Positions 53,827 through 64,000 of a DNA stretch of 64,000 nucleotides are shown piece after piece. Every line of letters begins with the position of its first letter. Positions within the stretch are counted from its first letter, which is position 1. Source of the stretch: Pedobacter sp. R20-19 (GTDB taxonomy: Bacteria; Bacteroidota; Bacteroidia; Sphingobacteriales; Sphingobacteriaceae); assembly GCF_000708265.2 (NCBI RefSeq), contig NZ_JCKI01000004.1:310001-374000 (forward strand). Direction: 5' to 3'. The notes under the pieces were generated by a model. That model saw only the letters and a list, made by a program, of their open reading frames with translations. It searched no databases and was not told where the DNA came from. The position numbers and the translations under genes are program-made.

Positions 53827-55200
53827 TTATTGGTTATCAGGCTGTGCAAAAAAACTTGTGCTTGCCTGGCTTAAAACTTTTCCATCTACCACCACTTCAA
53901 ATTCGGCATCAGATTTATATTCCTTAATCTGGTTATTATTTCTGATGAGAAAGAAGGTAATTTGTGCAGATCCGTCTTTTGGAAGCACATTTGCTGCTTG
54001 TATAAATTCGATTTGATCATGTTGATCTTTCGCCCTGAATTCAAACTTTATCGTTTTATTGGTTTTATTGATCAACTCTGCATTATACAGATTGCTGGTT
54101 TGATTGCTTCCTCTATTTTGATAAAGCGTACCACTCGCCCGCAACACGGTAGTTTCAATTGATGACCTTTTATAAATGAGTGCAGAAAAAACCATGAATA
54201 CCACAAATAAAACAGCTGCATATCCATAGGCTTTGGCCCCTATTTTAAATGGCTTCTGTTGGCTAATATAATCCTGATTGAAAAATCCTATTAGCCGCTC
54301 TGGTTTGTTGATTTTTAGCATCACTTCATCGCAGGCATCAATACAGGCTGTACAATTTACACATTCCAGCTGTGTTCCCTTTCTAATGTCTATGCCCGTT
54401 GGGCAAACCTGTACGCATAATCCACAATCTATGCAATCGCCTTTAGCTTCATCTACATTTTGTCTCTGAATCTTCCCTCGGGGTTCACCTCGATTAACAT
54501 TATAGGCTACAATAAGGCTCTGGTTATCCAGCAAAACACCCTGTAACCTGCCGTAAGGACAAATTACCGTACAAACCACCTCACGCACATAGGCAAAAAC
54601 ACCATAAAACAGAAAGGTAAAAATACAGATGGAAATAAAGCCTGATACATGCTGATGAACTGGTTCTGTGATGATGCTGAATAGTTTTTCGGAACCAATA
54701 AGATAGGCTAAAAAGGTATTCGCGATGGCAAATGAAATCACTAAAAAGATAAAATGTTTAGCCGATTTTTTAAAAATCTTCTCCCTATTCCAGGGCTGTG
54801 CATTTAGTTTCTTTTGCTTCTGATTATCGCCTTCAATCCAGAATTCTATTCTCCGGAACACCAATTCCATAAAAATGGTTTGCGGGCAGGCCCAACCACA
54901 CCAAAGCCTGCCCAAAACCACTGTAAAACAGACAATAAAAATCATGAATATGAGCATCGCCAATGCGAAAAGATAAAAATCCTGCGGGGTAAAAATCAAT
55001 CCAAAGAATACAAATTTTCGTTCGATGAAATTTAATAGCACCCACTGCTCACCATTCAATTTTAAAAAAGGGCAAGAGAATAAAAGCAAAAGCAGCACAT
55101 AGCTTACCCATTTCCGGTAAGTATATAATCTTCCCGATGGCTTTTTAGGATATAGAAAATCCCTGCCCTTGCTTTCTTTTTTCTTATTATTTTGTGGCAT
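53827..55200 (-). CDS. ccoG: Cytochrome oxidase accessory protein CcoG
   Basis: 457 residues: several membrane helices in the N-terminal half, the motif CGWACPQTIFMELVFRRIE, and two [4Fe-4S] binding motifs beginning CIDCGLC (Cys256) and CVNCTAC (near 280). C-terminal periplasmic domain of IgFN type (about 350-457). CcoG reduces copper for the oxidase and is linked to the copper transfer route. It overlaps ccoP by 14 bases, showing tight coupling. Confidence 0.95.
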   Translation of the reverse strand: MPQNNKKKESKGRDFLYPKKPSGRLYTYRKWVSYVLLLLLFSCPFLKLNGEQWVLLNFIERKFVFFGLIFTPQDFYLFALAMLIFMIFIVCFTVVLGRLWCGWACPQTIFMELVFRRIEFWIEGDNQKQKKLNAQPWNREKIFKKSAKHFIFLVISFAIANTFLAYLIGSEKLFSIITEPVHQHVSGFISICIFTFLFYGVFAYVREVVCTVICPYGRLQGVLLDNQSLIVAYNVNRGEPRGKIQRQNVDEAKGDCIDCGLCVQVCPTGIDIRKGTQLECVNCTACIDACDEVMLKINKPERLIGFFNQDYISQQKPFKIGAKAYGYAAVLFVVFMVFSALIYKRSSIETTVLRASGTLYQNRGSNQTSNLYNAELINKTNKTIKFEFRAKDQHDQIEFIQAANVLPKDGSAQITFFLIRNNNQIKEYKSDAEFEVVVDGKVLSQASTSFFAQPDNQ

Positions 55201-56155
55201 TTGTTGTTTTCAAACTATCTGCGGGTTCTTTCATGGCATTATCCTGTGGATCTTTTTCTTCATACTTCTCACCCTGAGCAGCCTTAGCCCCTGCCGGATT
55301 TGTACCCGACAGCGATAAAATGTAATTGGCGACAGCACTGATTTGTTTCGGATTCAGGTTTTTCTCCCAGCTAATCATACCTTTTTCAGGCACACCGTAT
55401 TTAATGGTTTTGAAGACGTTGTTAATGCCCCCACCGTGTAACCAGTAATCATCAGTTAAATTCGGACCGATAATTCCTTGCCCTTTATCGCCATGACATA
55501 CTTTACAGTTTCCTTCGAAAATATTCTTCCCTTCAGCCAATACCGATTCTGTGATATCAACTTTCACCGTATTTTCATCAATTGCATTTGCTGATTTTTG
55601 TAAGTAGGCCGCTTTTTCAACTTGCGCCTGTGCTATTTCATTTTTATATTCCTGATCCTGGAGATCGCCATAGCCACCAATGTGGTAATAGAACAGGTAA
55701 CCTGCCGCAATAATCATGGTACCGAAAAACAAGAAGTTAAACCAGGCTGGAACCGGATTATTCAGTTCCTTAATACCATCATAGGCGTGATCAATTTCCA
55801 GATCTTTTTCCTGTTCAATGGGTTTTAAACTCAATAATTTTTCCCAGATAGAATAGCCTTTTTTCCGGCTCTTTAACCATTCATCATAGTTTAATTGTTC
55901 AGCCTTCTCTGGTGATAAATAAGGTGTAGGATTGAGCTGTTCCTTATACATCACCTTGAAAGCGTTGAGTAAGGTAAGCGACACAAATACCAGTACAACA
56001 GCAAATAGCAATAAAATAACGATCAATAATTCTGATTGCGTAAGCCCAAGTGATGGCGCTGAAGGCTTTACATTTTCAGCAACTGTTTTTTCATCTGCTG
56101 CGAATGCCAACACCTGACCGAGCAGCAACAAAATAAATAAACTAATCTTCTTCAT
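55187..56155 (-). CDS. ccoP: cbb3 oxidase subunit III, single-haem CcoP
   Basis: 322 residues. Signal-like N-terminus, membrane helix (about 43-67), a second helix near 140-155, then one cytochrome c domain with haem motif CKVCHG (217-221) and axial Met region. Standard CcoP has two haems; only one CXXCH is present here. It delivers electrons to CcoO/N. The next gene upstream, ccoQ, overlaps by 14 bases. Confidence 0.93.
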   Translation of the reverse strand: MKKISLFILLLLGQVLAFAADEKTVAENVKPSAPSLGLTQSELLIVILLLFAVVLVFVSLTLLNAFKVMYKEQLNPTPYLSPEKAEQLNYDEWLKSRKKGYSIWEKLLSLKPIEQEKDLEIDHAYDGIKELNNPVPAWFNFLFFGTMIIAAGYLFYYHIGGYGDLQDQEYKNEIAQAQVEKAAYLQKSANAIDENTVKVDITESVLAEGKNIFEGNCKVCHGDKGQGIIGPNLTDDYWLHGGGINNVFKTIKYGVPEKGMISWEKNLNPKQISAVANYILSLSGTNPAGAKAAQGEKYEEKDPQDNAMKEPADSLKTTNATK

Positions 56156-56324
56156 ACCCTTGAGTTTGATTTTCCTGGATTGGCAATTCGCTCATGACTT
56201 CGATATGCTTTTTATTTAATTTAAGGAGGTAAATGCCTACGATAATGAAAAATACCATAAACATGATCAGTGAGCTGATGAGGTAAAGTTCACCTCCGGC
56301 CAGGTCTTTTATTTGATTGAACAT
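56142..56324 (-). CDS. ccoQ: CcoQ-like small membrane protein
   Basis: 60 residues: one membrane helix (about 15-35, LISSLIMFMVFFIIVGIYLL) with a short polar tail. Size and place between ccoNO and ccoP match CcoQ, which stabilises the oxidase. It overlaps ccoP by 14 bases and starts four bases after ccoNO. The sequence itself is too short for a firm family match. Confidence 0.8.
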   Translation of the reverse strand: MFNQIKDLAGGELYLISSLIMFMVFFIIVGIYLLKLNKKHIEVMSELPIQENQTQGYEED

Positions 56325-56328
56325 AATT

Positions 56329-58467
56329 TTAGTTGGTTGGAATTTCTGCTTTATTGGCTTTAATATCAGTACCTAAGCGCTGTAGATAGGCTATAATGGC
56401 CACAATCTCCCGATCACTTTTTACTTTAATGTTGTTTTGTTTTAAATCAGCAGCAATTTGATCAGCCTGAATTTTAAGATCTTCATTAGCCTTTTGGTCA
56501 TACCCAGCTGCATATGGCACACCGAGTGTTTGCATCGCCCTAATTTTACTTGCCGTGGTGGTGATATCAAGTTGCTGTTTTACAAGCCATGGGTACGGTG
56601 GCATAATACTGCCCGGCGACATTGAAGTGGGATCTACCAGGTGATTATAATGCCATGCATCTGAATATTTTCCGCCAATGCGATGCAAATCTGGTCCGGT
56701 TCTTTTACTTCCCCATAAAAAAGGGTGATCATAAACAAACTCACCAGCCTTGCTATATTCGCCATAACGTTCTGTTTCTGAACGGAAAGGCCTAACTGTT
56801 TGGGAATGGCAGTTTACACAACCTTCGCGGATATAAAGATCTCTTCCTTGCAATTCTAAAGCAGAATAAGGTTTTACACTGGCAATAGTGGGCACGTTAG
56901 ACTGTATCGTAAATGTAGGCATCATTTCCACCATTCCACCTATCAGAATGATAATCAATGATAAAACCATAAATTTCATTGGCTTACGCTCTAAAACCCT
57001 GTGCCAGGCTTTATCCGCAGCAGAATGATCTACAATTTCTTTTGCCAGAGGCATTGCTTCTGCGGGTTCATTAGCAACCAGTTTAGCACTTCTCATGGTT
57101 TTGGCCAGGTTATAAGTCATCACAATTACACCTGCCAGATACATTGCACCACCTATTGATCGCAATACATGCATGGGAATTATCTGTAGCGTGGTGGCCA
57201 GGAAGTTTGGATACTTCAGTAAACCTTCGCCGGTAAACTCTTTCCACATTAAACCTTGGGTAAAACCTGCCCAGTACATCGGGATAGCATAAAAAAGAAT
57301 GCCGAGCGTGCCTATCCAAAAGTGAAAGCCGGCCAGTTTTTTAGAATATAGTTCCGTTTTATAAATTCTTGGAATTAACCAGTACAATACGCCGAAAGTT
57401 AAAAAGCCATTCCATCCTAATGCCCCTACGTGTACGTGGGCCACAATCCAATCGGTAAAGTGGGCCACACCATTAATTTGCTTTAAAGATAACATTGGCC
57501 CTTCGAAGGTGGCCATACCATAAGCTGTTAGAGCCACTACCATAAATTTCAGGGTAACATCTTCCCGAACTTTATCCCATGCTCCCCGAAGGGTTAGTAA
57601 ACCGTTAATCATTCCGCCCCAGCTTGGAGCAATCAGCATAATTGAAAAAGCAACGCCTAAAGATTGTGCCCAACCTGGTAAAGAGGTATAGAGTAAATGG
57701 TGCGGACCAGCCCAGATGTAAATAAAAATCAGCGACCAAAAGTGTAAAATACTTAGTTTATAAGAGTATACCGGTCTTCCAGCCATTTTTGGCAGAAAGT
57801 AATACATCATACCTAAATAAGGTGTGGTTAAAAAGAAAGCTACCGCATTGTGTCCGTACCACCATTGTACCAATGCATCCTGAACGCCTGCATACACATA
57901 ATAACTTTTCATAAAAGAGATAGGCAACTCAAATGAGTTAACAATATGCAACACTGCTATGGTTACAAAGGTGGCAATGTAAAACCAAATGGCTACGTAT
58001 AAATGCCGCTCTCTTCTTTTAAAAATGGTACCAAACATGTTCACTCCAAATACTACCCAAATGATGGTAATGGCAATATCTATTGGCCACTCCAGTTCAG
58101 CGTATTCATGCGAGGTGGTAAAACCAAGTGGAAGGGTAATCACTGCTGATACGATGATAAGCTGCCAGCCCCAGAAATGAATTTTACTTAAAATATCACT
58201 AAACATTCTGGCCTTAAGCAGGCGCTGTAAAGAATAATACACCCCCATAAAAATGGCGTTGCCTACAAAGGCAAAAATCACCGCATTGGTGTGTAAGGGC
58301 CTGATCCTACCAAAGGTGGTATACTGGTTTCCTAAATTCATTGCAGGTTTGAAAAGCTGCATCGCTGCCAGCAAACCCACCGTCATCCCAATAATCCCCC
58401 AAACGAGGGTGGCAATGCCGAAGTTTCTGACAATCTTGTTATCGTAAGTAAATCGCTCTAATTGCAT
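56329..58467 (-). CDS. ccoNO: Fused cbb3 oxidase subunits I and II (CcoNO)
   Basis: 712 residues. The first 470 or so form the 12-helix haem-copper oxidase (His ligands in RPLHTNAVIF, AHVHVGALGWNG and WYGHNAV). The rest is CcoO: one membrane helix and a cytochrome c domain with CVNCHSQ (550-554). In most bacteria CcoN and CcoO are separate; fusion is typical of Bacteroidota. It reduces O2 to water at low oxygen and pumps protons. Followed by ccoQ on the same strand. Confidence 0.96.
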   Translation of the reverse strand: MQLERFTYDNKIVRNFGIATLVWGIIGMTVGLLAAMQLFKPAMNLGNQYTTFGRIRPLHTNAVIFAFVGNAIFMGVYYSLQRLLKARMFSDILSKIHFWGWQLIIVSAVITLPLGFTTSHEYAELEWPIDIAITIIWVVFGVNMFGTIFKRRERHLYVAIWFYIATFVTIAVLHIVNSFELPISFMKSYYVYAGVQDALVQWWYGHNAVAFFLTTPYLGMMYYFLPKMAGRPVYSYKLSILHFWSLIFIYIWAGPHHLLYTSLPGWAQSLGVAFSIMLIAPSWGGMINGLLTLRGAWDKVREDVTLKFMVVALTAYGMATFEGPMLSLKQINGVAHFTDWIVAHVHVGALGWNGFLTFGVLYWLIPRIYKTELYSKKLAGFHFWIGTLGILFYAIPMYWAGFTQGLMWKEFTGEGLLKYPNFLATTLQIIPMHVLRSIGGAMYLAGVIVMTYNLAKTMRSAKLVANEPAEAMPLAKEIVDHSAADKAWHRVLERKPMKFMVLSLIIILIGGMVEMMPTFTIQSNVPTIASVKPYSALELQGRDLYIREGCVNCHSQTVRPFRSETERYGEYSKAGEFVYDHPFLWGSKRTGPDLHRIGGKYSDAWHYNHLVDPTSMSPGSIMPPYPWLVKQQLDITTTASKIRAMQTLGVPYAAGYDQKANEDLKIQADQIAADLKQNNIKVKSDREIVAIIAYLQRLGTDIKANKAEIPTN

Positions 58468-58538
58468 AAACAGAAATGTTTTGTTTGTATTGATAGGTCA
58501 AAGGTATCCTGCATGGGGCAGGTAAAGGATGATGTGGC

Positions 58539-58718
58539 TTAGCTGGAAAAGTGATCTTCTTCACTTTTTGCTTCTTCCAGCTCATCATCGAAAAGAATCC
58601 GTATACCCGGGGTGTAAACGTCGTCGTTTTGCCCCGTTTTGGCAGCCCAGATAAACGCACCCAGAAAAATGAGTGCCATTAAAACGCTGCAGCCCACTAA
58701 AAAATAGAGAATATTCAT
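58539..58718 (-). CDS. ccoS: CcoS small assembly protein of cbb3 oxidase
   Basis: 59 residues: ATG at 58718, TAA at 58541-58539. One N-terminal membrane helix (MNILYFLVGCSVLMALIFLG) and an acidic tail (DDELEEAKSEED). Helix, tail and position between ccoI and ccoNO fit CcoS, which acts with CcoI in cofactor insertion. It is followed by ccoNO after 71 bases. The overlapping longer frame in another phase is not coding. Confidence 0.9.
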   Translation of the reverse strand: MNILYFLVGCSVLMALIFLGAFIWAAKTGQNDDVYTPGIRILFDDELEEAKSEEDHFSS

Positions 58719-58860: not shown

Positions 58861-61251
58861 TCAGGTAAATAGTTTATTTCTACGCGCCAGAATGCGTGTA
58901 GCGAAAGTGGTAAAGCAGATGATTGTTACGGTGCTTATCGGCATGAGTACCGCAGCAACTAAGGGATAAAGCGTACCCTGAACGGCATAAAAGATTCCGA
59001 TAAAATTATACGCAGTAGCAATAGCGAAACTTGCTTTGATAATCTTAATTCCATCTTTACTCAGGCCAATAAAATTGGGCAGCAAGCTTAATGAATCGCC
59101 CTTTAAAATGGCATCGCATCCGGGGGTAAAATTGTTAATATCATCTGTAATGGCAATGCCGAAATCACTTTGTTTTAAGGCACCTGCATCATTCAGCCCA
59201 TCACCTAACATCATCACTGCCCTTCCGCTGTCTTGCAAAGCCGAAATGGCATCGAGCTTTTCATGAGGACTTTGCCTGAATCTGATTTGATTCTTTTCCG
59301 GAAAGATGGTTCTCAAATGGCGTTCATCTTTGTTGGTATCACCAGAAAGCAATTGTACATCAAATGAACGATTTAATTGTGCAATCAGCACATTGAGTTG
59401 AGGTCGCCACTCCTGTTCAATCACAAAATTCCCCATGTAAACATTATCAATCACCACATGCACACCGCTGAAAGGCTGATGATCCACCGCTTTTAAATTG
59501 GACGATAAACTTCCGGCGTAAACACTTGAGCCGTTAATAGTTGCAGATAAACCCTTACCCAGCATTTCCTGATAATTCTTCACCTGAAAAAAATCACCTG
59601 TTTTTAATTCCTTTAAAATGTGCCTGCTCAATGGATGCGCAGAATTTCTGAACAGTGAAGCCACTATTTTTTTCTCGTGATCATCCAATTTACCATTGAA
59701 ATAAACCTGCGCATTTCGGGTGGTGGTTAGTGTTCCGGTTTTATCAAAAACGATGGCATCACACTTAGCCAGCTGTTCTACAGCATCAGTATTTTTTACA
59801 TAAAAACCTTTTTTATCAAACACAGATAAAATGGCTGAAAGTGTAAATGGTGTACTTAAAGCCAGTACGCATGGGCAAGCCACAATAATTACAGCTGTAA
59901 ATGCCGACCAGGCTTTGTGGCTATCGTGTTGCAAAAGCCAGTAAGCAGTGGCTGAAAAGGCAATGGTAAATACGGCCAGGCTAAAATACTTGGCAATGCT
60001 ATCATTAAAGTTCTGCTTTTGAACATGGTTTTTATAATGATCATGGTTCCATAAACCCGTTAAATAACTTTGAGATACAGGCTTAATCACTTCTAATTCT
60101 ATAGCCTCTCCTGTTTGTCGACCTCCGGCATAGATAATTTCACCTAAAACCTTGTGTACAGGTTCAGATTCGCCAGTTACGAAACTCATATCCATCCAGG
60201 CATCACCTTTCATTAAAATCGCATCAGCAGGGAGTAATTCGCCGTTTCTAATCCATAAGCGGTCTCCAATTTTCACTTCATTGATGGAAACTGGTTTTTC
60301 CAGACCGTTAATTAATGTAGTTACCGCAATCGGGAAATAGGAACGATAATCACGATCGAAGGAAATGTGGTTATAAGTTCGTTGTTTCAACCACTTCCCC
60401 ATTAACAGCAAAAAAACCAAACCCGTCAGGGTATCAGCGAAGCCAGGTCCGGTGTTAAATATAATTTCAAATGCTGTCCGTAAAAATAGAACGGCAATGA
60501 TTAATGCTAAAGGCGTATCCAGATTTACATGCTTATGTTTTAAACTGGTGATGGCGGATATAAAATAATCTTTACCACAATAAAATGCTGCCGGAATGGA
60601 AAAAGCTAAATTCAGCCAGCCAAATAACACTTGAAATTGTTTTTCCAGGCCAGACAAACCAAAATATTCGGGAAAGCTGAAAAGCATCACATTGCCCATT
60701 AAAAATCCCGCTACAGCTATTTTCAAAATCAAACCTTTATCCAAGGCCTTTTGATGTTCCTTCACCACATCCTGAAGGCTGATTAAAGGCTCGTAGCCAA
60801 TCTGAATTAGTGTTTCTACCAAGTTCCTTAGTGAGATTTCTTTATGGCTAAAAGTGATGGTAACTTGCTTCCTGATGAAATCAATTCGTGAGCTGAAGAT
60901 GGCTTGATTGATTTTATAAAGATGCTCAAGTAACCAGATACATGAACTACAGTGAATTGCTGGAATATAAAAGGTTATGATACTGGAGTCTTTGCCAGTA
61001 TAATCAATCAGTTGGTTTATAATCTGCTGTTCATCCAGGTATTCTAACCGGGTATCGTGATTAAATCGCTGACCTGGATTATGATTATATGCATAGTAAT
61101 TACAGAGGTTATTTTCTGAAAGGATTTGATAAACTCCCTTGCAACCAGCACAACAAAATTCTTTATCATCCAATCGATGAACATGGTCTGTAACCTCTTC
61201 TCCACAATGATAACAGATGGTATAAGTTGTGGTTTGTTGTTGGTTTTTCAT
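58861..61251 (-). CDS. ccoI: Copper-exporting P-type ATPase CcoI
   Basis: 796 residues from ATG 61251 (MKNQQQTTTY). N-terminal Cys-rich zinc-finger-like part (CYHCG, CCAGC), a heavy-metal domain with CSSC (Cys101, Cys104), eight helices, the CPC ion site (459-461) and the phosphorylated Asp503 in DKTGTLT. CcoI exports or delivers copper for the oxidase. Placed between hemN and ccoS, as expected. The upstream frame from 61335 (in the hemN end) is not used. Confidence 0.95.
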   Translation of the reverse strand: MKNQQQTTTYTICYHCGEEVTDHVHRLDDKEFCCAGCKGVYQILSENNLCNYYAYNHNPGQRFNHDTRLEYLDEQQIINQLIDYTGKDSSIITFYIPAIHCSSCIWLLEHLYKINQAIFSSRIDFIRKQVTITFSHKEISLRNLVETLIQIGYEPLISLQDVVKEHQKALDKGLILKIAVAGFLMGNVMLFSFPEYFGLSGLEKQFQVLFGWLNLAFSIPAAFYCGKDYFISAITSLKHKHVNLDTPLALIIAVLFLRTAFEIIFNTGPGFADTLTGLVFLLLMGKWLKQRTYNHISFDRDYRSYFPIAVTTLINGLEKPVSINEVKIGDRLWIRNGELLPADAILMKGDAWMDMSFVTGESEPVHKVLGEIIYAGGRQTGEAIELEVIKPVSQSYLTGLWNHDHYKNHVQKQNFNDSIAKYFSLAVFTIAFSATAYWLLQHDSHKAWSAFTAVIIVACPCVLALSTPFTLSAILSVFDKKGFYVKNTDAVEQLAKCDAIVFDKTGTLTTTRNAQVYFNGKLDDHEKKIVASLFRNSAHPLSRHILKELKTGDFFQVKNYQEMLGKGLSATINGSSVYAGSLSSNLKAVDHQPFSGVHVVIDNVYMGNFVIEQEWRPQLNVLIAQLNRSFDVQLLSGDTNKDERHLRTIFPEKNQIRFRQSPHEKLDAISALQDSGRAVMMLGDGLNDAGALKQSDFGIAITDDINNFTPGCDAILKGDSLSLLPNFIGLSKDGIKIIKASFAIATAYNFIGIFYAVQGTLYPLVAAVLMPISTVTIICFTTFATRILARRNKLFT

Positions 61252-61261
61252 GGCATAGAAT

Positions 61262-62608
61262 TTAAATGGCAGCACTAAATAGCTTAGTTTCCGGTTGCCT
61301 AGCCCATAACTTCTCATCAAAAGCCATGCACACATTTCTTAAGAATGATTTACCATTTTGTGTGATGTTAATTTCCTTTCCACAAACCTGAATCAGCTGA
61401 TCTTGAATGAGCGGAGAAAGTCTTTTAACAATTGCATCGGGTATCGCTTCGGGGTAGCTGGTGTTTTCCCGGCACATGATATTTAAAATATGCTGACGGA
61501 TCTCCAGGTCTTCTTCAGAGAGCAAATGACCTTTTTCTATCGGCCATAAACCAGCATTAATTTTATCTAGATAAGCTTCAACACTTTTAGGGTTTTGTGC
61601 AAATGCAGTCCAGCTATCACTAATAGACGAAACACCTAAACCAATCAGCAAATGCGTGTGCTGATCAGTATAGCCCATAAAGTTGCGATGCAATTTTTTC
61701 TCCGCACTTGCTATAAATAGCGTATCAGTTTCTAGGGCAAAGTGATCCATTCCCACGTCTTCATATCCAGCTTCCAACAACATCTTTTTACCCATTTGAT
61801 AAAGCGCAAATTTCTCATTTCCAGCAGGAAGATCTTCAACGGTATAGTGCCTTTGACCAGGCTTAAGCCAAGGCACATGCGCATAACTATAAAACGCAAT
61901 CCGATCGGGCTTCATCTCAATTACGGCTTCAATTGTTTCTGATAAACCAACAATGTTCTGAGCAGGTAATCCATAAATTAAATCAAAATTTATAGAATCA
62001 AAACCAATTGCTCTAGCTTGACGCATGATCGAGGTTACCTGTTGTGGTGTTTGAAATCGATTGATCATCATCTGCACTTTTGGATCGAAATCCTGAATCC
62101 CCAGACTCAATCGTTTAAAGCCTAATTGATACAGGGTTTGCAAATGTGCTTCGGTGGTATTTGCCGGGTGCGCTTCAAATGAAAATGTAGCATCAGGCGA
62201 AACTTCAACCCCGGTAAGAATACCTTCAATTAATATCTTCAGGTTTTCAGCTTGAAAAAAAGTAGGCGTACCACCGCCTAGGTGCAACTCTTTTATTTTC
62301 AGCTTACTTCCCAGCAGATTTTGATACATTTTCCATTCTGCTAAAACGGCCTTGATGTAAGGCAATTCCACCGTATGGTTTTTTGTGATTCGTGTATTGC
62401 ATCCACAATAAGTACATAAGCTTTCGCAATAAGGCAGGTGAATATAAAGGCTGATTCCGCCATCTCCGTGCTCCGCATAAATGGTTTGAACAGCACTGAT
62501 CCATTTTTCGGGACTAAATGTAGTCTGATCCCAATATGGAACTGTTGGATAACTCGTATAACGTGGTGCAGCAACATTATATTTTTGAAGTAGTGCAGCT
62601 GTTTCCAT
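61262..62608 (-). CDS. hemN: Oxygen-independent coproporphyrinogen III oxidase
   Basis: 448 residues. Radical-SAM motif CESLCTYC (Cys61, Cys65, Cys68), with Cys70 also present, plus the HemN C-terminal domain. It makes protoporphyrinogen IX without oxygen, supplying haem to the oxidase at low O2. It overlaps the stop of the Cys-rich protein by one base (TAATG) and is ten bases from ccoI, so all are one operon. Other HemN-like proteins without this activity exist, but the Cys70 and length (about 450) support true HemN. Confidence 0.95.
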   Translation of the reverse strand: METAALLQKYNVAAPRYTSYPTVPYWDQTTFSPEKWISAVQTIYAEHGDGGISLYIHLPYCESLCTYCGCNTRITKNHTVELPYIKAVLAEWKMYQNLLGSKLKIKELHLGGGTPTFFQAENLKILIEGILTGVEVSPDATFSFEAHPANTTEAHLQTLYQLGFKRLSLGIQDFDPKVQMMINRFQTPQQVTSIMRQARAIGFDSINFDLIYGLPAQNIVGLSETIEAVIEMKPDRIAFYSYAHVPWLKPGQRHYTVEDLPAGNEKFALYQMGKKMLLEAGYEDVGMDHFALETDTLFIASAEKKLHRNFMGYTDQHTHLLIGLGVSSISDSWTAFAQNPKSVEAYLDKINAGLWPIEKGHLLSEEDLEIRQHILNIMCRENTSYPEAIPDAIVKRLSPLIQDQLIQVCGKEINITQNGKSFLRNVCMAFDEKLWARQPETKLFSAAI

Positions 62609-63036
62609 TATTTTAAGGCTTTAGCTACACCACAATTATTCTGACAGCAACAGGCTTTGCCTACACATTTACCGGCAGCCCATTGATCCAGATTCTTGAT
62701 AACCTGTTCCATTCGCAATTTAGGATCCTGGTTTTCATCCAGCAGTGGTACATTTGCTACTTTCATTCCGGCACGACCTGCGGCCAGTAAATCCAGGTGT
62801 CCAGTGTCGACAGATGATGTGGCGATATATCGAATCCCCAATGACTTTAATCCATCAATCATTTGCGCGTCTAAGTCGTCATGATTAAAAACCAATAACA
62901 CTTCTTTACCTGCAGAAAAAGACAAAGTATCAATAGTTAAACTATTGGCTATGATGGTAATATCATGTTTCTTATAATTTGCGAGAACCAGCCATTCTTT
63001 TTCGACAGGCTTAATATTATAGGCTATTGCTTTCAT
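62608..63036 (-). CDS. Short dehydrogenase-like protein with C-terminal cysteine cluster
   Basis: 142 residues from ATG 63036; the TTG two codons upstream is not needed. Residues 1-110 resemble the N-terminal (substrate) domain of D-lactate/2-hydroxyacid dehydrogenases (MKAIAYNIKPVEKEWL, then LKSLGIRYIATSSVDTGHLD), but the NAD-binding Rossmann part is missing. The end has five Cys in CVGKACCCQNNC (Cys124, 129, 130, 131, 135), which could hold a metal or Fe-S cluster. First gene of the hemN operon. Not an active dehydrogenase; role unknown, perhaps redox sensing. Confidence 0.7.
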   Translation of the reverse strand: MKAIAYNIKPVEKEWLVLANYKKHDITIIANSLTIDTLSFSAGKEVLLVFNHDDLDAQMIDGLKSLGIRYIATSSVDTGHLDLLAAGRAGMKVANVPLLDENQDPKLRMEQVIKNLDQWAAGKCVGKACCCQNNCGVAKALK

Positions 63037-63054: not shown

Positions 63055-63062
63055 CAAAAATA
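63055..63062 (-). promoter_or_regulatory. Promoter -7 element of the hemN operon
   Basis: On the minus strand TATTTTTG (63062-63055) fits TAnnTTTG and lies 18 bases before ATG 63036. The T-run also follows the terminator hairpin of the regulator gene, so the same bases may serve both. No good -33 was found, which would suit activator control. Confidence 0.55.
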
Positions 63063-63096
63063 AAGCAGCCATCACTTGGAGAGGATGAGGCTGCTT
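63063..63096 (-). terminator. Terminator after the receiver-Crp regulator gene
   Basis: AAGCAGCC (63063-63070) and GGCTGCTT (63089-63096) form an 8-bp stem with an 18-base loop; on the minus strand T-rich bases follow. Confidence 0.7.
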
Positions 63097-63144
63097 AGAC
63101 TAAAAAGTGACATTAATTACTTTTAAAGGATAGGTGTAAATGAT

Positions 63145-64000
63145 TTATTGCTTTACATTTTTAAGATTTTTCAATGATAATATGTTGATGGCATTACCCG
63201 TTTTATCAATCAATTTTTCATCCTTAAAGTCAGCTAGCATCCGACTAACAGTCTCACTTGCAGTCCCAACCAACGCAGCAAGATCGTCTCTTGAAATTTT
63301 GATGGTACAATTATCACTTTCTACACTGCCAAATTTTTCAGCCACCTGCACCAATGCTTCAGCTACCCGCTTCCTTACCGATGAATAAGCCAATTGCAAC
63401 ATTTGTTTTCCTTTACCTTGTACATTTTCAGATAGCAAGTTGATAAACTTTTTGGATACAGACTGGTGGTTGAGCAGATATTCCATAAAATCTGTTTTGG
63501 GAATCTGGATAATTTCTGATGGTGCAAGTGTTGCCGCATTTTCAGCATAAGGTACACCATTACAAAGGCTTTCATAACCAAAGAAATCACCATCATGAAA
63601 TAAGCCGGAGGAAAGTTCCCGACCATCTTTAAAACGTTTATATGTTTTAACTTGTCCCTTCACAATATAGTAAAGATGCAAAGGTTCATCATCCTCTACA
63701 TAAATAATTTGTTTGTTTGCAACTGATCTGGCTTTGCCTTTTGCCTTAAGTTCTTCAAAAACGGCATCAATACTTCCGGCTGATGTACCCATGGTTTTTG
63801 ATTGCTGTTTCTTTTTAAAACGGCTTTCTATGGCCTTAAACAATTCTAAATCGTCAAATGGCTTTGTTAAATAATCATCTGCCCCCATTTCCATTCCCTT
63901 TCTCATATCTGCACGTTCGGTTTTAGCTGTAATGAAGATAAATGGAATATTGGCCGTTTGCGGGTTTTTATTAATCAGATATAATACGCCATAACCATCC
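63145..64000 (-). CDS. Receiver domain fused to Crp/Fnr-type regulator (partial)
   Basis: The frame stays open to the window end, so the N-terminus is missing; about 284 residues are seen. The first part is a receiver domain (FIFITAKTERAD, then MGADDYLTKPFDD with the conserved Lys); its Asp lies outside. Next comes a cyclic-nucleotide-binding-like domain and a helix-turn-helix (SRDDLAALVGTASETVSRML). No FNR-type Cys cluster is seen in this part. Such fusions stand beside cbb3 genes in Bacteroidota and probably control them. The frame's ATG at 63906 is internal, because receiver sequence continues before it. Confidence 0.85.
   Translation of the reverse strand, partial: DGYGVLYLINKNPQTANIPFIFITAKTERADMRKGMEMGADDYLTKPFDDLELFKAIESRFKKKQQSKTMGTSAGSIDAVFEELKAKGKARSVANKQIIYVEDDEPLHLYYIVKGQVKTYKRFKDGRELSSGLFHDGDFFGYESLCNGVPYAENAATLAPSEIIQIPKTDFMEYLLNHQSVSKKFINLLSENVQGKGKQMLQLAYSSVRKRVAEALVQVAEKFGSVESDNCTIKISRDDLAALVGTASETVSRMLADFKDEKLIDKTGNAINILSLKNLKNVKQ

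Follow-up and report, generated by a model that had tools for sequence, protein, structure and literature searches.

A short gene in a 64,000-nucleotide stretch of the Pedobacter sp. R20-19 genome (the window), here called X, encodes an apparently non-catalytic D-lactate dehydrogenase (LDH) domain with a conserved four-cysteine tail. Our comparisons show it within a predicted FixL-type circuit, behind a promoter element that it seems to have in common with ccoN. Our best inference is that X regulates a low-oxygen circuit, has no enzymatic activity and probably binds a metal or an Fe-S cluster. The specific reading we prefer, tentatively and with somewhat less than even confidence, is that X is a non-catalytic remnant of a Cys-tailed D-lactate dehydrogenase, recruited to a FixL-like kinase/receiver-CRP low-oxygen circuit and working there in a manner like that of Caulobacter FixT.

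Domain structure and cysteine tail of X

X runs on the minus strand from an ATG at 63036 to a stop at 62608-62610, and its TAA overlaps the ATG of hemN (TAATG), placing it, as the first-pass annotation of this DNA had noted, as the first gene before hemN and ccoI (Table 1). A search of the reference genome collection found a 98% identical protein in P. psychrotolerans. Also in line with that annotation, which saw only the substrate-like domain of a 2-hydroxyacid dehydrogenase, the match to PF00389 (2-Hacid_dh) exceeds the gathering score, and Pfam reported nothing else up to E 1, neither the NAD-binding domain PF02826 nor the receiver domain PF00072. The catalytic Arg, Glu, and His of LDH, all located in the missing NAD segment, are absent, and where LDH has the substrate loop RSxGxDHxD, X has the degenerate SSVDTGHLD.

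Table 1. Features of the window around gene X
Feature	Position	Strand	Basis
cco operon (ccoNO fusion, ccoQ, ccoP, ccoG)	53827..58467	minus	ORFs; names by sequence recognition, not family search
Second composite element copy, before ccoN, 2 mismatches	58530..58563	minus	whole-genome pattern search
ccoI-like heavy-metal P-type ATPase	58861..61251	minus	family search; ccoI name by context
hemN, oxygen-independent coproporphyrinogen III oxidase	61262..62608	minus	TIGR00538, E 1.7e-120, above cut-off
Gene X, 142 aa, LDH substrate domain + four-Cys tail	62608..63036	minus	ORF, Pfam, conservation, model
Cys tail C-x4-CCC-x3-C (C124, C129, C130, C131, C135)	62632..62667	minus	sequence, orthologue alignment
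C-terminal helix, X residues 105-120, predicted counterpart of the last LDH helix after the missing NAD domain	62677..62724	minus	model, structural alignment, sequence match to full-length relatives
PF00389 region, X residues 19-97	62746..62982	minus	Pfam, E 7.6e-9
TAnnTTTG, TATTTTTG, X promoter	63055..63062	minus	pattern count
Composite CRP/FNR-like element of X promoter, TGAYN4RTCA ... TRAN5CTCA, 1 mismatch	63086..63119	minus	pattern count
Receiver-CRP regulator, 343 aa in all, cut by window end	63145..64000	minus	domain matches

In the LDH fold the NAD domain is inserted after the first five strands and ahead of the last helix, which packs on the substrate domain. The predicted structure of X (mean pLDDT 75.5, pTM 0.70) has five strands and a helix packed in the same way. 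Structural alignment of this model with residues 1-330 of Salmonella LDH covered 131 of the 142 residues of X (Z 19.6, rmsd 1.9), and since the alignment runs along that whole range, the last helix is kept in X. X is thus best described as an internal excision of a Cys-tailed D-lactate dehydrogenase that retained the LDH C-terminal helix. Calling it truncated was right about the missing NAD domain and wrong about the end of the protein; simple truncation is contradicted by the retained helix and by full-length Cys-tailed relatives. The best structure matches were to LdhA (PF00389 plus PF02826; E. coli 5z1z, Salmonella 4cuj), whose substrate domain and C-terminal helix are like those of X, whereas X lacks the LdhA NAD domain and catalytic Arg/Glu/His, and the four-Cys tail is absent from the ordinary LDHs examined. 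The fold also matches CtBP (Z about 15), a 2-hydroxyacid dehydrogenase turned transcriptional corepressor; the matched chains, however, are by title dehydrogenase cores, several with NAD(H), while X has no NAD domain and carries a Cys tail.

The final 20 residues of X start with KCVGKACCCQNNC, containing the five cysteines. Residues 125-142 have pLDDT values under 50, the tail being disordered in the model, and it resembled no solved metal site when a profile of 17 tails was compared with the PDB (7 matches, best E 0.3, taken as chance). Conservation of the tail is nonetheless strong: all 48 aligned orthologues have C124, G126, C129, C131, and C135, and C130 is nearly invariant. The five added cysteines pointed out earlier are present, and cysteines are conserved as that proposal needed, but the conserved core consists of four, C-x4-C-x-C-x3-C, found in 118 of 133 unique loci (99 short, 19 full-length). 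The full CCC version occurs in 65 of the 133. In the other 15 loci (10 short and 5 full-length, the latter being L127, L128, L172, L176, and L205) the strict motif is absent or altered, several having few or no Cys, and given these a cluster is apparently not needed at every locus. In one Pedobacter group (L082, L083, L084, L085, and L089), His-rich ends such as HEH or HSHEHTH follow the Cys motif.

The set of 133 omits 22 ordinary LDH loci (L130-L151), the fragments L077 and L078, the full-length LDHs L087 and L088, which lack the tail and the neighbours, and any locus repeating another's last 110 residues (120 in the count of downstream hemN genes); it retains L172 and L086, a tail-less copy before another hemN. 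Within the family, 204 of 251 genomes match X at E 1e-8, ordinary LDHs included, about 189 of them more strongly than 1e-26. Matches elsewhere in the phylum have open frames of LDH length, except one of 126 aa in G498. The 22 phylum LDHs read outside the family all lack the Cys motif, and flanks of up to 1.5 kb around them show no match to the window hemN or regulator. A tail profile searched against 198 phylum genomes was found in three, all Sphingobacteriaceae; at 31 positions the profile is insensitive and gives weak evidence of absence elsewhere.

One could imagine X to be a functionless, decaying gene kept by its position between regulator and hemN, as the few tail-less or shortened copies (L086, L129, and L185) and the replacement of X by an insertion in locus L231 might suggest. 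We regard this as highly improbable. The 58 X-related loci from the reference genome collection retain 50-98% identity over full-length matches, 30 columns are invariant in the 48-sequence alignment, and X has a conserved promoter of its own; such conservation contradicts decay.

Full-length relatives and loss of the NAD domain

The slot occupied by X is filled in several other genera of the family (coded g33, g37, g41, g44, and g45) by an LDH with the same tail (e.g., KNLDLWQLDKCVGNSCVCAKNC), in open frames of 340-375 codons counted stop to stop. L166, the single full-length relative scanned, carries both PF02826 and PF00389. Because the full-length forms largely keep the catalytic Arg (23 of 24), Glu and His (24 of 24 each), and GxGxxG (22 of 24), many of them may still be enzymes.

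Several lines of comparison point to repeated loss of the NAD domain from a Cys-tailed LDH. On a tree of hemN plus regulator, built from 73 of 86 selected loci (the 13 without hemN were excluded), the distribution of full-length and short forms requires at least 5 changes, 5 being forced by starred branches, and about 9 to 11 losses can be read off the drawn tree if only loss is allowed. For g37, a single clade of short forms was rejected with a p-AU of 2e-49 (11 short rows and 17 full-length ones, of which two come from other genera). A tree of the X domain itself (38 rows, 113 columns) needed 8 changes, with a weaker rejection (p-AU 0.03). The excision junctions also differ, L201 and L199 retaining pieces of the end of the NAD domain and most others having none. 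In g37, full-length and short forms both occur with regulator and hemN, and these neighbours therefore do not account for loss of the NAD domain.

Even where it is retained, the NAD domain evolves differently. Among 23 Cys-tailed full-length LDHs (L172, counted among the 24 above, was excluded), the mean distance is 0.245 for the substrate domain versus 0.406 for the NAD domain, the latter being more diverged in 252 of 253 pairs. Ordinary LDHs behave in the opposite way, both in 22 from the phylum (0.500 for substrate versus 0.417 for NAD; NAD more diverged in 27 of 231 pairs) and in 14 from the same family (0.438 versus 0.304; 0 of 91 pairs). Although these pairs are statistically dependent and every set was collected through similarity to the substrate domain, sequence divergence points clearly to a reversed domain constraint in the Cys-tailed LDHs, with the NAD domain the faster one. 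Residues K22, N31, and K44 are present in 97-100% of 23 full-length and 60 short forms and in 0-3% of 36 ordinary LDHs; being family specific, they indicate that the X-type domain has acquired its own surface or site.

These patterns bear on another reading, in which the family serves primarily as a D-lactate dehydrogenase under microaerobic conditions, its tail working as a redox switch. The short forms would then be residual or would act on a small molecule, for instance pyruvate or lactate. An LDH would suit a low-oxygen regulon, and the intact catalytic residues of the full-length forms fit. We nevertheless judge this decidedly unlikely, as the NAD domain is relaxed relative to the substrate domain and has repeatedly been lost while substrate domain and tail were retained, and as X itself lacks all three catalytic residues and has the degenerate loop.

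Genomic context and promoter element

Directly upstream of the receiver-CRP regulator, outside the window, lies a FixL-like PAS kinase. Its PAS domain matches the FixL structure 1dp6 (E 1.8e-30), HisKA and HATPase_c domains are also present, and it carries the motif MPAPDKIKHDGY...GIGR; we take HDGY...GIGR to mark the haem His and Arg of FixL. With a FixL-type PAS joined to HisKA/HATPase, the protein is classed here as a FixL-type kinase, its haem and oxygen sensing being putative. Upstream of the kinase is a protein of 592 aa (L226 4448-6226, G000:C4) that contains a CxCxxxC stretch and matches no Pfam family, and a protein resembling it by eye is found near X in L204.

The context of X is wider than haem and oxidase genes, as kinase and regulator lie upstream in most loci. 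The regulator was seen in 111 of 133 loci and the kinase in 83 of the 100 with enough sequence; in the remaining 22 and 17 loci, respectively, none was found on that strand in the 4.5 kb upstream. Directly downstream of X, hemN is present in 121 of 133 loci, including 15 of the 17 kinase-less ones. The position of ccoNO downstream of ccoI is conserved, and ccoI follows hemN in many Pedobacter and g27/g38/g39 loci. In several genera no match to the window CcoI was detected after hemN in the fetched stretches, while X and hemN were still adjacent; a copper chaperone for CcoI was discarded on this ground.

Twelve of the 133 loci, from eleven genomes, lack hemN downstream. Nine of these genomes (all except those of L069 and L079) were searched for hemN and ccoN. 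In eight, X has kinase and regulator beside it. These eight genomes all lack an orthologous hemN, the only matches being 26-30% identical and, we guess, HemW-like; ccoN gave no match in 7 of the same 8 and a 32% partial match in the eighth, one of the genomes being only 71% complete. The ninth genome (G190) has hemN and ccoN elsewhere, with two X-family copies away from both. These orphans, L171 and L172, are also away from the regulator, one being short with Cys and the other full-length without. In five loci without hemN (L171, L181, L197, L204, and L205), the opposite strand downstream of X encodes a protein of about 120-150 aa that by eye looks alike from locus to locus.

Orthologues outside cbb3 contexts, which the annotation had named as evidence against its own proposal, accordingly do occur. 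A dedicated haem/cbb3 factor was rejected, since X is present in eight genomes that have no orthologous hemN and, in seven cases, no ccoN match either. Of the annotation's functional suggestions, an iron, copper, or haem scaffold for cbb3 gives way to a role in oxygen regulation, which fits better because kinase and regulator so often lie upstream and because X occurs without hemN and ccoN; X itself may nonetheless sense oxygen or bind a metal.

Genomes without X point to joint loss of X and hemN. Fifteen were picked, eight with no match and seven with weak matches only (E about 5e-11 to 5e-14); 14 had no hemN match at E 1e-60, and 6 had receiver-CRP matches. Three of those six contexts were read: one is an X-type locus with X replaced, and two (G226 and G071) hold a different FixL-like pair adjoining a UspA-like gene. 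In the former (L231, G095:C18, 2533-3480), a GIY-YIG-like ORF, recognized by eye, and other sequence stand between regulator and hemN, making this locus a natural X knock-out.

Upstream of X we noticed by eye, and then counted, a composite CRP/FNR-like element, so that the pattern was chosen after seeing the data. Its TGAYN4RTCA part occurs in 99 of 127 distinct X upstream stretches (shuffled mean 2.3) and TAnnTTTG, which we take to be the -7 element of Bacteroidota promoters, in 123 of 127 (shuffled mean 12), with a constant spacing between the two in 83 of the 99; all shuffled controls preserve base composition only. A plain palindrome count was modest, the best 5-bp dyad occurring in 10 of 134 stretches against a shuffled best of 2-3. 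When the Pedobacter genome was searched with the composite pattern, up to 2 mismatches being allowed, there were 3 matches and none for the reversed-pattern control; the match before X is partly by construction, that before ccoN is not. The third is on another contig (G000:C10:28206-28239, L230).

Across genomes, 52 ccoI-ccoN intergenic stretches were compared; 49 of them contain a looser box plus TAnnTTTG at the same spacing (shuffles averaged 0.06 and reached at most 1), and 26 contain a stricter pattern (shuffles averaged 10 and reached at most 16). X and the ccoN operon thus appear, from these pattern counts, to have a CRP/FNR-type promoter element in common. The element also precedes L171 and L172, copies without hemN and regulator neighbours, and at least four of the eight loci without orthologous hemN (L163, L165, L200, and L204) carry it. 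The neighbouring CRP-type regulator is the natural candidate to bind it. An inverted repeat, AAGCAGCC...GGCTGCTT (63063-63096, minus strand), overlaps the CRP-like element and ends at the X -7 box; it may terminate transcription of the regulator gene or serve as an attenuator.

Possible roles of X and comparison with known circuits

In the account we prefer, the receiver-CRP regulator would switch X on at low oxygen, and the four Cys of X would bind an Fe-S cluster or some other metal through their thiolates, a site that would stay intact only when oxygen is low. Contact with kinase or regulator would be made by the domain derived from LDH, and X might thereby damp or time the response of the circuit, including haem synthesis through hemN. 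Against X as a part of the circuit stand a second FixL-like pair in the same genome, which has no X, and the loci where no kinase (17 of 100) or no regulator (22 of 133) was found upstream. The 15 loci without the strict Cys motif, and a tail that is disordered in the model and resembles no solved metal site, speak against the proposed cluster.

Another possibility, in the direction taken by the first-pass annotation, is that X is a metal or redox carrier. It would then serve HemN as electron partner or Fe-S helper, or supply CcoI and cbb3 as a chaperone of copper or iron. The prevalence of hemN directly downstream (121 of 133 loci), the stop/start overlap in the window, and the ccoI genes that follow in many Pedobacter and g27/g38/g39 loci would agree with such a role, as would the thiolate-rich tail, the His-rich ends of some relatives, and the 15 loci that keep X and hemN without an adjacent kinase. 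It must be set against the eight of eight genomes where X remains without orthologous hemN, seven of them with no ccoN match, against the X promoter element at four or more of those eight loci, and against the several genera lacking a window-CcoI match after hemN in the fetched stretches. On balance we think a carrier role unlikely.

A FixT-like regulator, our preferred reading, invites comparison with Caulobacter. There, FixT is a receiver domain whose 4-Cys motif binds an Fe-S cluster and which inhibits FixL autophosphorylation; it also restrains porphyrin build-up, and its loss raises porphyrins (PMC7078487). X resembles FixT in its small size, in having a 4-Cys motif and in its predicted place in a low-oxygen circuit of the FixL type, and the porphyrin link of FixT has a parallel in the position of X before hemN. 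The differences are equally plain: the FixT cysteines (C53, C56, C59, and C64) are spaced differently from C-x4-C-x-C-x3-C; FixT is a receiver domain, whereas X is an LDH domain with no PF00072; and inhibition of FixL, known for FixT, would apply to X by analogy. X would at most work like FixT and lies outside the FixT family.

A bolder version holds that excision of the NAD domain has, several times independently, turned an LDH into a non-enzyme that binds Fe-S or another metal through thiolates and regulates a FixL-type sensor, in other words a FixT-like anti-kinase of unrelated origin whose regulatory role preceded the loss of catalysis. We consider this full sequence of events doubtful.

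More broadly, the locus recalls the alphaproteobacterial FixL-FixJ/FixK circuits, with a FixL-type PAS kinase, a CRP/FNR-type output, and cbb3 and hemN nearby, but the Pedobacter regulator fuses receiver and CRP domains in one protein. We know of no counterpart of X in the alphaproteobacterial circuits, and the literature searched on LDH/hemN/cbb3 in Bacteroidetes and on FixL in Pedobacter yielded no description of the protein. The parts of X are known; as far as these searches reach, their combination and the recurrent domain excision are new.

If the regulatory reading is true, an enzyme has repeatedly lost its catalytic domain while an accessory domain and a metal-like tail stayed under strong selection, and the conversion of enzyme to regulator has been caught with living intermediates. 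Low-oxygen circuits of Sphingobacteriaceae would then include a redox-responsive part for which no described counterpart was found, and which would form a natural comparison with Caulobacter FixT. The second FixL-like kinase/receiver-CRP pair of the Pedobacter genome, in split frames (L227 4618-6863, G000:C5:134000-144000), lies near genes that by eye are UspA-like.
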